From: Antiquaquibacter metalliresistens
GTDB lineage: Bacteria; Actinomycetota; Actinomycetes; Actinomycetales; Microbacteriaceae
Assembly (NCBI RefSeq): GCF_029211225.1
Contig: NZ_JARGEM010000002.1
Location: 124,001 to 188,000 of the forward strand
Reading direction: 5' to 3'
DNA length: 64,000 nucleotides
The position numbers and the translations under genes were made by a program. The first letter of the stretch is position 1, and each line of letters begins with the position of its first letter. The notes beneath the pieces are model-generated. The model was not told where the DNA came from. It worked only from the letters and a program-made list of their open reading frames with translations, and made no database searches. Shown in pieces: positions 27,336-56,879 of this stretch.

Positions 27336-27380
27336 TTGTTAGTGCCCAGGGAGGTTATTTGACCTGGTTGCGGTGAGGTG

Positions 27381-27429
27381 ACGAGAACCTCCCGGATTAG
27401 ACACCACTTCTGATTCAGGAGGTTCTCGT
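27381..27429. repeat. 12-base inverted repeat ACGAGAACCTCC/GGAGGTTCTCGT
   Basis: Perfect 12-base arms with a 25-base loop, next to the transposase remnant. The right arm contains AGGAGG followed by a GTG, so in an intact element the hairpin would hide a ribosome site. ATTCAGGAG, the end motif of the 55.6-56.8 kb elements, occurs at 27413-27421 across the right arm. Probably a terminal or leader part of a decayed insertion sequence. Confidence 0.5.
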
Positions 27430-27477
27430 GCGAGGCCTGCTCCGAGTCAACGTGCCGCGCAGCCTCCCCGCCGGGCT

Positions 27478-32185: not shown

Positions 32186-32628
32186 GGCCGCCTGCGCGGA
32201 CCGCCCGCGTGCACCCCGCACCGCTCGACGACCCACTCGGCGTGCTCGAGACCGACCGCCCGACGGTCGCCCGGGCCTGGGTGCCGGGACCAGTGCACCA
32301 CGACCGGGGCATCGGCCGCGAGCGGCAGGCGCGGCCACACCGGATCATGCAACCGGGCGGTGTTCGCCGCGACCTCCACGTGAAGCACGTGCGGCATGGC
32401 TTCGCCCAGGTGCAATGCCACCGCGCTCACGCACGTCAGCCGACCGCCGATCCGCCACGCCCGGAGCACGGCCGGATGCTCGTCCGGCCGTGCGAACCAG
32501 CCATTGCGTACCCGGATCAGTCGCCACCCATACCACGCGGCGAGGTCAATCTGGCCTGGGTCGACTCCCGCGCTGACCAATTCTCTGCGCGCGGCAAGGC
32601 CTCCCAGTGAGTCCACGATGTCCAGCAT
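32146..32628 (-). pseudogene. Truncated AbiEi/DUF559-type protein
   Basis: 160 residues from the ATG seven bases after GGAGG. The N-terminal winged-helix-like part (MLDIVDSLGGLAARRELVSA ... WYGWRLIRVRNGWFARPD) and the central domain (CVSAVALHLGEAM; PVVVHWSRHPG) parallel the 293-residue DUF559 protein at 55.8 kb. The C-terminal nuclease domain is absent: after about residue 135 the frame has no family similarity and runs antisense into the end of the XPB gene. Most likely a 3'-deleted copy. It may still be translated as an AbiEi-like DNA-binding piece. Confidence 0.65.
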
Positions 32629-32728
32629 CTTCATGCCTCCACGCTCGCACCCCATGACCGCCCGTCTCGTCGGCCTCACGCGTTGTGTGGATAGCGTCGG
32701 ACGCACCGCCGATGTGGGATCGCCAGAC

Positions 32729-52094: not shown

Positions 52095-53387
52095 ATGGCC
52101 GGTTCACTGAACATCACGGCGGCAACCGTCGACCCGGCCCTGCTCGACCTGCCGTGGAACCTCCCGCTCGACGTGTGGCCGGAGGATTCGATCGCCACCC
52201 TGCCCAAGGGCATCTCGCGTCACCTCGTGCGCTTCGTGAACCTGAGTGGTTATGTCGTGGCGATCAAGGAGACCTCGGCGGAGCTCGCCCGGCGGGAGTA
52301 CGACACGCTTCGCGCGCTGCAGCGCCTCGATCTGCCCTGCGTCGAGCCGGTGGCCGTGATCACGAACCGCACGGATGACGCGGGCGAGCCGCTCGAGTCC
52401 GTGCTGGTCACCCGCCACCTGCGGTTCTCGCTGCCGTATCGGGCGGTGTACTCGCAGAGTCTGCGGCCGGAGACGGCCACCCGGCTCGTCGACGCGCTCG
52501 CGGTGCTGCTCGTGCGCCTGCACATCTCCGGCTTCTTCTGGGGCGACGTCTCGCTCTCCAACACCCTGTTCCGCCGCGATGCCGGGGCGTTCGCCGCCTA
52601 CCTCGTCGACGCCGAGACCGGCACGATCTACGACGGGCTCTCCGACGGACAGCGCGAGAACGACCTCGAGATCGGTCGCATCAACATCGCGGGCGAGCTG
52701 CTCGACCTGCAGGCCGGCGGCCGACTCGAGGAGCACATCGACCCGGTCGAGATCGCCAACGGCATCGTCGCCCGCTATCGCACGCTCTGGAAGGAGCTCA
52801 CCGGCTCCGAGGAGTTCGATCAGTCCGAGCGCTGGCGCATCAACCAGCGGGTCGAGCGCCTGAACGACCTCGGGTTCGACATCGAGGAGCTCGCCATCAA
52901 GACGGACGAGACCGGCACGCAGGTGCGCATCCAGCCGAAGGTGGTGGATGCCGGGCATCACTCACGACGCCTGCTGCGACTGACCGGACTCGACGCGCAG
53001 GAGAACCAGGCCCGGCGCCTGCTCAACGACCTGGACTCCTACCGCGCCGCGTTCGAGAAGCAGGACCTCGACGAGGAGGTCGTCGCCCACGAGTGGACCG
53101 CGCGAGTGTTCGAGCCCGTGATCCGCGCGATCCCGAAGGAGCTCAAGGGCAAGCTCGAACCCGCCGAGATCTTCCACCAGCTGCTCGATCACCGCTGGTA
53201 CCTCTCGCAGAACGAGCACCGCGACATCCCGCTCGCCGAGGCGGTGTCGAGCTACATCGACACGGTGCTGCGGCACCGGCGCGACGAGGCGACGATGATC
53301 AACCCGCCGACCGGCACGTTCACGGCACCGATCTCGGTCATCACCGCGCCGGAGCCCGAGGAAGACGACTGGCGCAGTAAGGTCTAG
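52095..53387 (+). CDS. DUF4032 protein with kinase-like motif
   Basis: 430 residues, AAGGAG upstream. The N-terminal half contains VVAIKETSAELARREYDTLR and LHISGFFWGDVSLSNTLF, resembling the Lys and the HxGDxxxxN catalytic loop of aminoglycoside/Rio-type kinases, with VDAETG at the usual metal-binding DxE/DFG place; His of the loop is Trp here. The C-terminal half (DUF4032, LKGKLEPAEIFHQLLDHRWY) is unassigned. Function unknown; possibly phosphorylates a small molecule or protein. Between the ATPase and MMPL genes. Confidence 0.8.
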   Translation: MAGSLNITAATVDPALLDLPWNLPLDVWPEDSIATLPKGISRHLVRFVNLSGYVVAIKETSAELARREYDTLRALQRLDLPCVEPVAVITNRTDDAGEPLESVLVTRHLRFSLPYRAVYSQSLRPETATRLVDALAVLLVRLHISGFFWGDVSLSNTLFRRDAGAFAAYLVDAETGTIYDGLSDGQRENDLEIGRINIAGELLDLQAGGRLEEHIDPVEIANGIVARYRTLWKELTGSEEFDQSERWRINQRVERLNDLGFDIEELAIKTDETGTQVRIQPKVVDAGHHSRRLLRLTGLDAQENQARRLLNDLDSYRAAFEKQDLDEEVVAHEWTARVFEPVIRAIPKELKGKLEPAEIFHQLLDHRWYLSQNEHRDIPLAEAVSSYIDTVLRHRRDEATMINPPTGTFTAPISVITAPEPEEDDWRSKV

Positions 53388-53390
53388 GCC

Positions 53391-55625
53391 GTGACCCCCA
53401 CGGAGCCGACCGGTGCCCTCGCGGCCACGAGTCGGCTCGCGGCGCGGCATCCGTTCGTCACGATCGCGGCCTGGGCCGTGGTGCTGGCGGTCTCGATCCT
53501 CACCGCGCTCTCCGGCATCGGGGGCGAGAGCCTCTTCGACCGGCTCGACAGCGCGGCGCCGACCGCACGTGGCGAGAGCACCGACGCCGACGACCTCCTG
53601 GCCGGCACCGGTGAGCAGGCGCAGTCCCTCTCGTTGGCCCTGGTCGGTGTGGACCCGACGGATGCCACGGCCATCGCCATCACCGCCGACCTCGCCGATC
53701 GCGTGGCCGCCCTCGACCATACCGAGCTGCTCGACCCGCTCGCGGCCCCGCGCCTGCCGGACGGCAGCCCGCTGCCGGCCCTCGCCCCGCTCTTCGCGGA
53801 GGACGGCGACGGGTTCCTCATCACCGGCACGGTCACGGGGGTGGATGGCGGCGCGCCCGACGAGGACGAGCGGGACGCACTGCAGACCGAGCTCGAGGCC
53901 ACAGCGACGCAGCTGCGCGAGGAGTTCCCGAACGCCACCGCGGAGGTCGGCGGCACCTCCCTGCTGGTGAGCTCGATCATCGCCATCTCCGAGCAGGACC
54001 TGCGGCGCGGCGAGTCCGTCGCGCTCCCGATCGCACTGCTGGTGATGCTCGTGGTGTTCGGCGGTTTCCTGGCGGCGGGCATCCCGCTCGTCGGCGCCGT
54101 CGTCTCCATCGTCGGCGGGCTCGGGGTGCTGTTCGGCTTCACCTTTGTCACCGACATCGACACGACCGTCGTCAACGTGGTCACCGCCGTCGGGCTGGGG
54201 CTGTCGATCGACTACGGCCTGCTGATGGTGAGCCGGTTCCGGGAGGAGTACCGGGCGGAGCTCGGGGCATCGTCCCCCTCCGTACACCGGGAGCACCTCA
54301 TCGAGGCGATCGCGCGCACCGCGGCGAGCGCGGGACGCACCGTCACCTACTCGGGTATCACCTTCGCGATCGCGTCGCTGAGCCTGCTCGCGTTCGAACC
54401 GCGCCTGATGCGCGCGGTCGGTCTCGGCGCGCTCGCGGTCACCGCGCTGGCGATCGCCTCCGCGATCACGCTCGTGCCCGCGCTGCTCGCGCTCGCCGGT
54501 CCGCGACTGGCGCGTCCCGGCGCGCTCACCCGCATCCCCGGTCTCGGGCGGGTGCTGAGCCGGTTCGGCGATGTGGCGCCCGCCGAGGGGTTCTTCTCCC
54601 GGCTCACGCGGCGTGTGCAGCGGCACCCCGCGCTCATCACCATCGCCTGCGCCGCGGTGCTCGTGCTGCTCGGCAGTCCCCTGGCGAGCCTGCGGCTGGC
54701 GAACACGAGCGTCGATGCGCTGCCGCAGAGCTCCACCCAGTACGCCTTCGTCGACACCCTGCGCGAGCACTTCCCGCAGGCCGCCTCGCCACGGGTGGCC
54801 CTCGTCACCGAGACCGAGGCGGATGCGGTCGCCTGGGCCGAGCAGGTGCAGTCGCTGCCCGCGGTGCAGTCCGTCGCTCCCCCGGTGGCGGCCGGGGACG
54901 GCTGGCGGGTGAACGTGCGGGTCGACCCGGCCGACGGCATCCCGCTCGTGGAGCGGATCCGGGCCGAGCGCCCGGACTTCCCGGCCTGGGTGACCGGCAC
55001 GGATGCCCGTACCCTCGATCTCTCGCAGGCGCTCCTGCGCGGGGTGCCGCTCGCCGTGCTCATCGTCGCCCTCGGCACGTTCGTGCTGCTGTTTCTGATG
55101 ACCGGGAGCGTGGTCATCCCGATCAAGGCGCTCATTGCGAGCGCGCTCTCGCTCGGCGCCTCGATCGGCGTGCTCGTCTGGGGCTTCGAGCAGGGCAACT
55201 TCGCCGGGATGATGGGGTTCAACGCCGCCGACGTGCACGGTGTCGACGTGCTCGTGCTGGTGCTCACGTTCGCGTTCGGCTTCGGGCTCGCGATGGACTA
55301 CGAGCTGTTCATCCTCTCCCGCGTGAAGGAGCTCAAAGACGCCGGAGCCAGCGACGAGGAGGCCATCGCGCTGGGCCTGCAGCGCTCCGGCCGCATCATC
55401 TCCTCCGCCGCGCTCATCATCATCGTCGTCTTCGCCGGCTTCGCCACCGGCGACCTCATGGTGATCAAGCAGCTGGGCACCGCCCTCGCGGTCGCCGTGC
55501 TGCTCGACGCCACCCTCGTACGCTGCCTGCTGGTGCCGGCCCTGATGACGTGGCAGCGCCGCATCATGTGGTGGTCACCACGCTGGATGAAGCGGCTGCA
55601 CGCCCGCTTCGCGCTGACGGACTAG
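53391..55625 (+). CDS. MMPL/RND-family membrane transporter
   Basis: 744 residues from GTG, three bases after the DUF4032 stop. About twelve membrane helices in two halves, each with a large extracytoplasmic loop; conserved GLGLSIDYGLLMVSRFREEY in helix 4 and AFGFGLAMDYELFILSRVKE in helix 10, each with the Asp-Tyr proton-relay pair. Exports lipids or hydrophobic compounds by proton antiport. Probably cotranscribed with DUF4032, whose link to it is unexplained. Confidence 0.9.
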   Translation: MTPTEPTGALAATSRLAARHPFVTIAAWAVVLAVSILTALSGIGGESLFDRLDSAAPTARGESTDADDLLAGTGEQAQSLSLALVGVDPTDATAIAITADLADRVAALDHTELLDPLAAPRLPDGSPLPALAPLFAEDGDGFLITGTVTGVDGGAPDEDERDALQTELEATATQLREEFPNATAEVGGTSLLVSSIIAISEQDLRRGESVALPIALLVMLVVFGGFLAAGIPLVGAVVSIVGGLGVLFGFTFVTDIDTTVVNVVTAVGLGLSIDYGLLMVSRFREEYRAELGASSPSVHREHLIEAIARTAASAGRTVTYSGITFAIASLSLLAFEPRLMRAVGLGALAVTALAIASAITLVPALLALAGPRLARPGALTRIPGLGRVLSRFGDVAPAEGFFSRLTRRVQRHPALITIACAAVLVLLGSPLASLRLANTSVDALPQSSTQYAFVDTLREHFPQAASPRVALVTETEADAVAWAEQVQSLPAVQSVAPPVAAGDGWRVNVRVDPADGIPLVERIRAERPDFPAWVTGTDARTLDLSQALLRGVPLAVLIVALGTFVLLFLMTGSVVIPIKALIASALSLGASIGVLVWGFEQGNFAGMMGFNAADVHGVDVLVLVLTFAFGFGLAMDYELFILSRVKELKDAGASDEEAIALGLQRSGRIISSAALIIIVVFAGFATGDLMVIKQLGTALAVAVLLDATLVRCLLVPALMTWQRRIMWWSPRWMKRLHARFALTD

Positions 55626-55650
55626 GCAGCGTCGCTCGCCACCTCGCATC

Positions 55651-55742
55651 ATTCAGGAGGCTCTGTGGTGGGTGTGGCTGACGTGGGTGCGGCAGACCAC
55701 GCAACGCGCCGATTCACCCTCCGGTCACACGAGCTCCTGAAT
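55651..55742. repeat. 92-base element with ATTCAGGAG/CTCCTGAAT ends (copy A)
   Basis: Nine-base perfect terminal inverted repeats at the outer edges of a 92-base GC-rich segment downstream of the DUF559 gene. Read inward, its first 40 bases resemble the reverse complement of copy B (GGAGG, T, TG, GG, GGTG pattern). No coding potential. Confidence 0.7.
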
Positions 55743-55774
55743 GTTGCCAGGCGGCGGGGGATGAGGGGGCGCGT

Positions 55775-56656
55775 TCAGCGCTGCGCCAGCGCCGCGAGCA
55801 CCACCCGCTCGCACCAGGCCCAATCGGACGCCACGCGCAGATAGCTCAAGCGGATGACGGTGTAACCGCGTGCCACGAGTTCGGCGTCCCGCCGTCGGTC
55901 CTCCTCGAACGCGTCGGGATCCTGGTGATAGGTGCGGCCGTCGACCTCGACCACCAGCCACCCGTCGATGACCATGTCGACGCGTCCGGCGCCGGAGACC
56001 TCGGCCTGCTGCACGATCGAGAGCCCGAGGCGCCGCAGCCGACGACAGGCCAGGGACTCGATTCCGGATTCCGCGCCGACCGTCGCGAGCGCGGCAAGGC
56101 GACGCGAGCGAGCAGGCTCGCGCGCGAACATCCCGAGCAATACCGGTCGGGTGATGTGCAGCTTGGTCAGCGCGGAGTCCAGACAGGCGAGTGCGGTCTC
56201 CTGGTCGCACCATCGCACCGTCTGCCGAAGCGCGGTGGCGAGATCCACGCGCCAGCATTCAGGACCGAGTTCCGGCACCGCGCCGTCGCGCATCCAGTGC
56301 AGGCGGATGCGCGCGCGGGGCCGGTCAGACCAGACCGAGGTCGTGAAGCTCGGCGGCACCGCCGTGCGCAACCGCGACGAATGATCACCGACCACGACGT
56401 GGATGATGCGCGAGAAGCCACCCCAGAGGCCGTAGCTCTGTGCGGCGGTCGGACCGGCGAGCCGACCGCCGACCCGTGCGGCCACGACGGCGGCGTGCGA
56501 CGTCTCCGGTACGACGTACCGAGCCTGCCGCACCCGTCGCACGGATCCGTTGCGAACGGCACGGGTGATCGCGTAGCCGTCGATCCCTGCCGCGATCAGC
56601 TGCTGCCGGGTCGCGACCCCACCGACACTTCTGACCACCGAGGCCGGGTCTCGCAT
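55775..56656 (-). CDS. AbiEi-like N-domain plus DUF559 endonuclease-like protein
   Basis: 293 residues from the ATG giving MRDPASVVRSVGGVATRQQL. The N-terminal AbiEi-type winged helix (1-60) is followed by a central domain (IIHVVVGDHSSRLR; RARIRLHWMRDGA) and a C-terminal DUF559 domain of the PD-(D/E)XK/Vsr type (GRVDMVIDGWLVVEVDGRTYHQDP ... YTVIRLSYLRV): Asp in VDMVID, Glu-Val-Asp and the later residues form the expected nuclease core. Usually called an orphan type IV antitoxin-like protein. It is enclosed by two palindrome-ended elements. An upstream ATG at 56734 is possible. Confidence 0.82.
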   Translation of the reverse strand: MRDPASVVRSVGGVATRQQLIAAGIDGYAITRAVRNGSVRRVRQARYVVPETSHAAVVAARVGGRLAGPTAAQSYGLWGGFSRIIHVVVGDHSSRLRTAVPPSFTTSVWSDRPRARIRLHWMRDGAVPELGPECWRVDLATALRQTVRWCDQETALACLDSALTKLHITRPVLLGMFAREPARSRRLAALATVGAESGIESLACRRLRRLGLSIVQQAEVSGAGRVDMVIDGWLVVEVDGRTYHQDPDAFEEDRRRDAELVARGYTVIRLSYLRVASDWAWCERVVLAALAQR

Positions 56657-56741
56657 GCAGAGAGCATCGCGCCGAAGCAGGGTGCCGATGCGCCCGTGGG
56701 TCGGATCGGTGGATCCCCCGGGGCTGTGGAACACGGCCGTA

Positions 56742-56832
56742 ATTCAGGAGATCGCGTGGCCAGTGGTGCTCTCGGCGGCTCGTGAGGTCACTCGCGCCTC
56801 AACGACCCCACCAGCCTCACAACCTCCTGAAT
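56742..56832. repeat. 91-base element with ATTCAGGAG/CTCCTGAAT ends (copy B)
   Basis: Same nine-base terminal inverted repeats and nearly the same length as copy A, on the other side of the DUF559 gene (85 bases before the chosen start, 7 bases from the longer one). Non-coding. Followed directly by CCAAGGGGG repeats. Confidence 0.7.
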
Positions 56833-56835
56833 GAA

Positions 56836-56879
56836 GCCAAGGGGGCCAAGGGGGGCAATGGGGCCAAGGGGGCCAAGGC
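56836..56879. repeat. GCCAAGGGG short tandem repeats
   Basis: Five drifting copies of GCCAAGGGG(G) fill the space between element B and the stop of the E2 gene. Comparable purine-rich arrays follow the palindrome at 6393. Confidence 0.7.

Follow-up and report, generated by a model that had tools for sequence, protein, structure and literature searches.

We identified a gene for a DUF559-type nuclease that lies between two nearly equal, palindrome-ended DNA elements, and the pairing of such genes with such elements is real and general. Gene and elements may together represent an undescribed and possibly mobile nuclease-and-element system. In the literature searched, mostly without subscription journals, we found no description either of elements paired with DUF559/AbiEi genes or of a role for the solitary AbiEi/DUF559 genes.

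The unit in the window

The window, by which we mean the whole stretch of 64,000 nucleotides that was analyzed, carries at 55775-56734 (minus strand) a gene for a DUF559/MTES_1575 protein of 319 amino acids, in which an AbiEi-type winged helix is followed by an EDxHD/Vsr-type nuclease. An earlier, sequence-only reading had this gene bracketed by ATTCAGGAG...CTCCTGAAT elements of 92 and 91 bp, and this is exactly what was found. The element on the 3' side of the gene occupies 55651-55742 (92 bp), with arms that match outward to 55647-55746, and the element on the 5' side occupies 56742-56832 (91 bp), with arms matching outward to 56738-56836 and a position 8 bp ahead of the predicted start codon. 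The unit is neighbored by genes named by eye as an MMPL-type transporter and pyruvate dehydrogenase E2 (PDH); among open reading frames of at least 80 amino acids in the window, no AbiEii-like toxin gene was recognized between the elements and these flanking genes.

The window contains five copies of the nine-base word ATTCAGGAG, where 0.19 would be expected, and none of 100 shuffles gave five. With a middle of 55-85 bp, ATTCAGGAG...CTCCTGAAT is present at two places only in the 3.07-Mb genome, which are the window pair (reversed-pattern control, 0). Two outcomes had been named beforehand as telling against the sequence-only reading, and both are absent: the end motif is not common genome-wide, the window pair being the only exact elements in the genome, and sharing is not limited to the nine-base ends, relatives having more than nine end bases in common. 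The suggestion that the inner sequences are loosely related in inverted orientation fared less well, as inverted comparison finds 13 and 12 of 20 positions alike but direct (10 and 12) and self-palindromic (9 and 12) comparisons make them nearly as alike. The fifth ATTCAGGAG, at 27413, sits in a separate inverted repeat, GAGAACCTCC...GGAGGTTCTC, at 27340-27430, which is perhaps the end of an insertion sequence.

The window protein scores above the Pfam cut-offs of three families: PF18741 MTES_1575 (42.3 bits, cut-off 38.2; residues 230-299, at 55838-56047, minus strand), PF13338 AbiEi_4 (28.5, cut-off 25) and PF04480 DUF559 (23.4 bits, cut-off 20.6). The AbiEi_4 match covers the winged helix (residues 33-69, at 56528-56638, minus strand), and it is the identity of this part that tracks the end motif best. 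NCBIfam gave no match for the protein, and PADLOC matched it only weakly to AbiEi and very weakly to a homing endonuclease (E 0.012). Residues E226, D253, E263, H270, and D279 are invariant in an alignment of 26 sequences (A2), and across 44 proteins the active-site columns hold E, D, E, and D in 44 and H in 42. A profile of the 26 relatives matches the solved structures 3HRL (E 1.4e-10) and 3R3P (E 2.4e-5), the latter labeled "Mobile intron protein" and taken by us to be I-Bth0305I. Judged by its active-site residues and its relation to a solved member, the nuclease is of the EDxHD/Vsr type, and MTES_1575 is described as a Vsr-type nuclease domain in PMC3710099. Kinship with HUH transposases was not found, the window protein and the profile of its relatives matching nuclease and winged-helix families.

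Solitary AbiEi/DUF559 genes are common, with PF18741 matches (E of at most 0.001) in 27/27 genomes of the genus and a close match in 101 of 198 genomes from across the order. In the genome to which the window belongs, five of six tested DUF559 loci are paired, with a different end word at each; the unit at the glyS-dsbA spot of this genome (L064) has additional tandem CATGAGTTGCG end words just outside its right element. The window also contains, at 32257-32631 (minus strand), an AbiEi-only fragment that matches positions 5-131 of the relatives' alignment profile without the nuclease part, and no paired elements were found at the two AbiEi-only fragments of this genome, of which it is one.

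Occurrence and geometry of paired elements

Exact ATTCAGGAG elements were found at 10 places in 6 of the 27 genus genomes, with 7 of the 10 flanking a DUF559 gene and 3 solitary. We then allowed other ends in a de novo test that looked for palindrome-ended spans on either side of a gene with one end word in common. A first search of this kind placed a pair at 34/42 DUF559 loci versus 4/94 control genes, and 3 of these 4 controls turned out to be DUF559 genes themselves. The sequence-only reading had proposed a search of related Microbacteriaceae, and its expectation was borne out: by a fixed rule, with thresholds set on genus data and with loci that share spots and close kinship and hence are not independent, elements adjoin DUF559 genes at 79 of the family's 110 tested loci, versus 0 unexplained among 96 control genes (6 matched, of which 3 were DUF559 genes fetched again and 3 were dsbA genes adjacent to DUF559 units). 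Outside the family, 4/13 loci in other families of the phylum were paired. For new loci at the same thresholds, pairs were detected at 21/58 in other families of the order and at 8 of 11 more in Microbacteriaceae (one of the 11 being a repeat, L302 = L231), with 2/27 control genes and 0/60 random placements matching.

The test gave no pair at 31/110 family loci and 37/58 loci of other families, at many of which nothing was seen; a few are misses, such as L016, where 71-bp elements are visible by eye on both sides. The genus sample consisted of 40 fetched from 108 listed PF18741 places, frames of more than 1000 amino acids being left out, and further samples consisted of about 58 strong matches and then of 30 loci plus 40 chosen regions from an order-wide search. 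Once open reading frames proved to run into elements, an inner search margin of 140 bp replaced the earlier one of 30 bp.

The lengths of the elements are phased. Among the matches listed, 81 exact TTCAGGAG-ended spans, some of them by eye inside coding sequence and kept in, peak at 69-71 bp (28 spans), 79-84 bp (38 spans), and 90-92 bp (11 spans), with 4 of the 81 off these peaks, and their best period is 10.9 bp (R 0.80 versus a null 99th percentile of 0.39). Steps of about 11 bp make it probable that the two ends share one face of the DNA duplex. The two elements of one locus are equal within 1 bp at 65/79 loci, and the other 14 differ by 2, 2, 4, 10-13 (seven loci), 16, and 22-23 bp (three loci); in a second locus set, paired elements are equal in 24/29 cases and differ by 1 bp in 5/29.

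The interiors are less regular. A central core, GACACGCC, is not general, being present in 12/13 of the G258 set and in 1/13, 0/10, and 2/30 of other sets. Among 97 equal-length pairs, direct comparison is better by at least 0.1 in 16 and inverted comparison in 15, and the five most alike pairs (L367, L087, L262, L077, and L263) are so in direct orientation. An origin of the pair as one chimeric element, with the unit inserted in its middle, predicts that outer arms match outer arms and inner arms match inner arms; no such preference was found, and this origin was rejected.

The end motif follows the protein

Each gene clade has its own end motif, and the motif goes with the winged helix more than with the nuclease and with the protein rather than with the genomic site. 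Across 80 loci, end-word likeness correlates with likeness of the winged helix at a rho of 0.40 and of the nuclease at 0.21; the partial correlation is 0.365 for the winged helix with the nuclease allowed for and 0.073 for the nuclease vice versa. No permutation in 300 reached the observed correlation for any part of the protein. Pairs of loci at the same spot whose proteins are less than 35% identical have a word score of 4.73 (41 pairs), which is about that of unrelated loci (4.19; 4615 pairs), and pairs at different spots with proteins 40-50% identical score 6.89 (134 pairs); different-spot pairs above 50% number 8 only, with a high word score in 3. As words are unrelated at shared spots when the proteins are dissimilar and more alike at different spots when the proteins are similar, common inheritance at one spot is not the whole cause.

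The closest relatives of the window protein (L074, L225, L221, L233, and L023; 45-55% identity) are located at another spot yet have the same ATTCAGGA. The window unit may be an example of a gene and a motif that move as a unit, its motif being common with relatives elsewhere. That the nuclease recognizes its own elements, as had been proposed at the outset, is very likely as a prediction from the pairing and the winged-helix link.

Shared spots, empty sites, and solitary copies

One and the same intergenic spot can harbor unrelated units. Grouped by similar flanks on either side, 115/191 loci make up 28 spots of at least 2 loci each, and among 75 locus pairs in which both flanks have at least 80% DNA identity, the DUF559 proteins are below 40% identical in 13 and 40-60% identical in 28. 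L238 and L254, for example, have differing nucleases at one spot (flanks 92% and 80%, proteins 52%), and L261 and L272 have one flank at 97% and proteins at 34%. Ordinary recombination in the conserved genes on either side can account for such swapped units.

The commonest spot, glyS-dsbA, with 24 loci, is compactly empty in G018 (about 64 bp) and G020 (about 90 bp), lengths being taken by eye, and contains no element in either genome, so that units need not land in an element. The comparison of occupied with empty sites, which the sequence-only reading had proposed as a check, gave no support for mobility: at the few comparable sites neither a target-site duplication nor a clean insertion was found. 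In the approximately 100 kb compared, G258 and G297 have nearly all elements in common, and the one difference is no clean insertion; neither nicking nor spreading, both suggested by that reading, was observed. In one unit of these two genomes, the left element is nearly identical and the right one differs over its middle, with the ends kept. L186 (G258 C1:1112231-1113417), near an element cluster, is a 1.19-kb insertion relative to G297 with apparently a direct repeat of about 40 bp at its ends.

No clean empty site was found in the MMPL-PDH region of ten relatives. In three of the ten (L103, L104, and L110), the PDH gene is directly beside what appears by eye to be the homologue of the window gene at 52095-53387. 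As the MMPL-type gene and the unit (53388-56879) are absent there, the larger stretch may have been gained or lost as a whole.

Elements also occur away from the gene. L087-type ends are present in 12 exact copies in G003, two of them beside the gene, and in none of the other 26 genus genomes (control, 0); G003 is the one genome of the 27 that has the cognate gene of this family. Ten of the copies were fetched, and their ends and middle are partly kept. In G258, 7/11 exact-ended elements are at most 75 kb from the nuclease gene (p 6.5e-6). Family-wide, a looser TTCAGGAG pattern matches 57/398 genomes with up to 14 copies, and the reversed control has one match each in 8 genomes.

Clusters surround the glyS-dsbA unit in two genomes, with about ten exact elements in 47 kb in G055 (L041-L043) and seven elements in 70 kb in G258 (L183-L186). 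These clusters suggested attC-like cassettes, a candidate that was rejected; between the elements there are, by eye, ordinary conserved genes and one nuclease gene.

Discussion

The explanation that we consider best, and on balance probable, is that the gene and its two elements are one unit, whose protein binds the ends and whose nuclease, through repair or transfer, spreads elements or units. Each element would carry two inverted copies of a motif of about 12-16 bp, whole helical turns apart and on one face of the duplex. The protein, most likely as a dimer, would bind both ends via its winged helix and so close the element into a short loop or clamp. With the upstream element spanning the promoter region, the protein should repress itself; AbiEi acts in this manner on its inverted repeats (PMC3985639), from which we infer that the DUF559 protein controls its own gene.

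The nuclease most likely acts at element-bound DNA, where it could nick or cut within the element or could cut a rival allele. Repair or strand transfer would then copy elements, and at times the whole unit, into other intergenic places, and solitary elements would be the non-autonomous offspring of the unit. Protein and cognate elements are probably inherited and exchanged as a unit of a selfish kind. A bolder proposition is that of a selfish nuclease-element class, widespread in Actinomycetales, in which the nuclease spreads phased palindromic elements in trans along with its own gene and each clade has a private word; on this we are almost evenly poised, with a slight lean toward doubt.

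The main rival is that the elements are AbiEi-style operators, the upstream one serving self-repression and the downstream one looping or read-through control, with solitary elements regulating other genes and the nuclease used otherwise, e.g., in defense. The promoter of the streptococcal AbiEi gene contains two inverted repeats, TGTTGCTTTTA-N27-TAAAAGCAACA, to which AbiEi binds as a repressor (PMC3985639), and an M. tuberculosis AbiEi is reported to autoregulate via multiple inverted repeats (PMC7319586). The upstream element moreover usually precedes the start codon closely, at a median distance of 80 bp in 111 loci, and the phasing would suit looped operators. Operators account less readily for a second, near-equal element at the 3' end of the gene, where the median gap to the stop is 12 bp and the element overlaps the open reading frame in 45/111 loci. 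The solitary copies could be a regulon, but a crude gene caller places 7 of the 10 fetched from G003 between convergent genes and away from promoters, and copy families are confined to one genome of the genus. On this evidence we regard the operator explanation as unlikely, albeit the first to be kept in mind.

A little less likely again is a free-standing homing endonuclease, which would cut the empty or rival allele at a fixed spot, repair from the flanks copying the unit and the elements merely insulating and regulating. Such a role fits the EDxHD-type nuclease domain, the shared spots with diverged proteins between like flanks, and a glyS-dsbA spot that is filled in many genomes and compactly empty in two, and I-Bth0305I is reported to bind, as a dimer, a target of almost 60 bp (PMC3943268). 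It leaves unexplained the dispersed solitary elements and the motif on both sides of the gene, and no cleavage site was identified at the spots.

Least of all do we expect the elements to be folded hairpins, as REP-like single-stranded structures or two-way transcription terminators, a very improbable reading in which the good folding of the whole window elements (z -2.4 to -6.9) and the G003 copies between convergent genes are set against a mean fold z that falls, once end motifs are removed, to -0.58 in 142 elements versus -0.12 in 142 controls (with stronger values of -1.65 for the G003 set and -1.25 for a mixed set), weak hairpin covariation, comparisons of the four arms of a locus in which self, inverted, and direct orientation do equally well, which gives no sign of favored pairing inside an element, and length steps of about 11 bp, which fit duplex DNA better than a stem.

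When the preferred explanation, in which nuclease and elements are one spreading unit, is placed beside known systems, REP-RAYT comes closest. In RAYT, as described in PMC3733652, palindromic elements flank a solitary enzyme gene and related elements are scattered intergenically over the same genome, and the DUF559 unit likewise has a solitary enzyme gene between palindromic elements and cognate copies dispersed in the same genome. The enzyme, however, is an EDxHD/Vsr nuclease rather than a HUH tyrosine transposase, and the elements are 59-92 bp long with helical spacing and an interior hairpin signal that is weak over all elements and stronger in the G003 set, whereas REP sequences are 20-40-bp hairpins tagged GTAG. 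Copies number in the tens, compared with hundreds for REP (PMC2817692). The RAYT analogy of the sequence-only reading is apt in the sense of "works like", as solitary copies of an element family were found in the genome that has the cognate gene and in no other of the genus; it does not extend to descent, the protein having no HUH kin, and gains little from the hairpin, whose fold signal beyond the end motifs is mostly weak.

With the AbiE type IV toxin-antitoxin system, the unit has in common an AbiEi-kind N-terminal winged helix and inverted-repeat sites near the gene; it differs in its C-terminal nuclease, in sites on both sides, in longer, phased spacing, and in that no AbiEii-like gene was seen in the window. 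I-Bth0305I, an EDxHD homing endonuclease, has a nuclease domain alike by profile (the 3R3P match), and its reported dimeric target of about 60 bp (PMC3943268) is close to the end-to-end distance of the DUF559 elements. Unlike it, the DUF559 gene is in no intron or intein and is flanked by two intact elements rather than by a target split by insertion. In integron cassettes, a gene is next to attC, and these sites are imperfect palindromes with conserved ends and variable middles, some of them clustered. DUF559 genes also adjoin imperfect palindromes that are conserved at the ends, variable in the middle, and here and there clustered, but no integrase was found at the loci examined, a single gene family is involved, and sites stand on both sides of one gene.

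The paired elements amount to a predicted DNA target for every protein, which makes binding, cutting, and mobility testable together in each clade. Should the proteins spread their own elements, this would be a new kind of bacterial selfish DNA and, if true, the RAYT-REP system reinvented using a restriction-type nuclease. If their role is regulation only, they would be a large group of regulatory nucleases whose sites can be read. In both cases, the numerous pairs of motif and protein would serve as a natural recognition-code data set.
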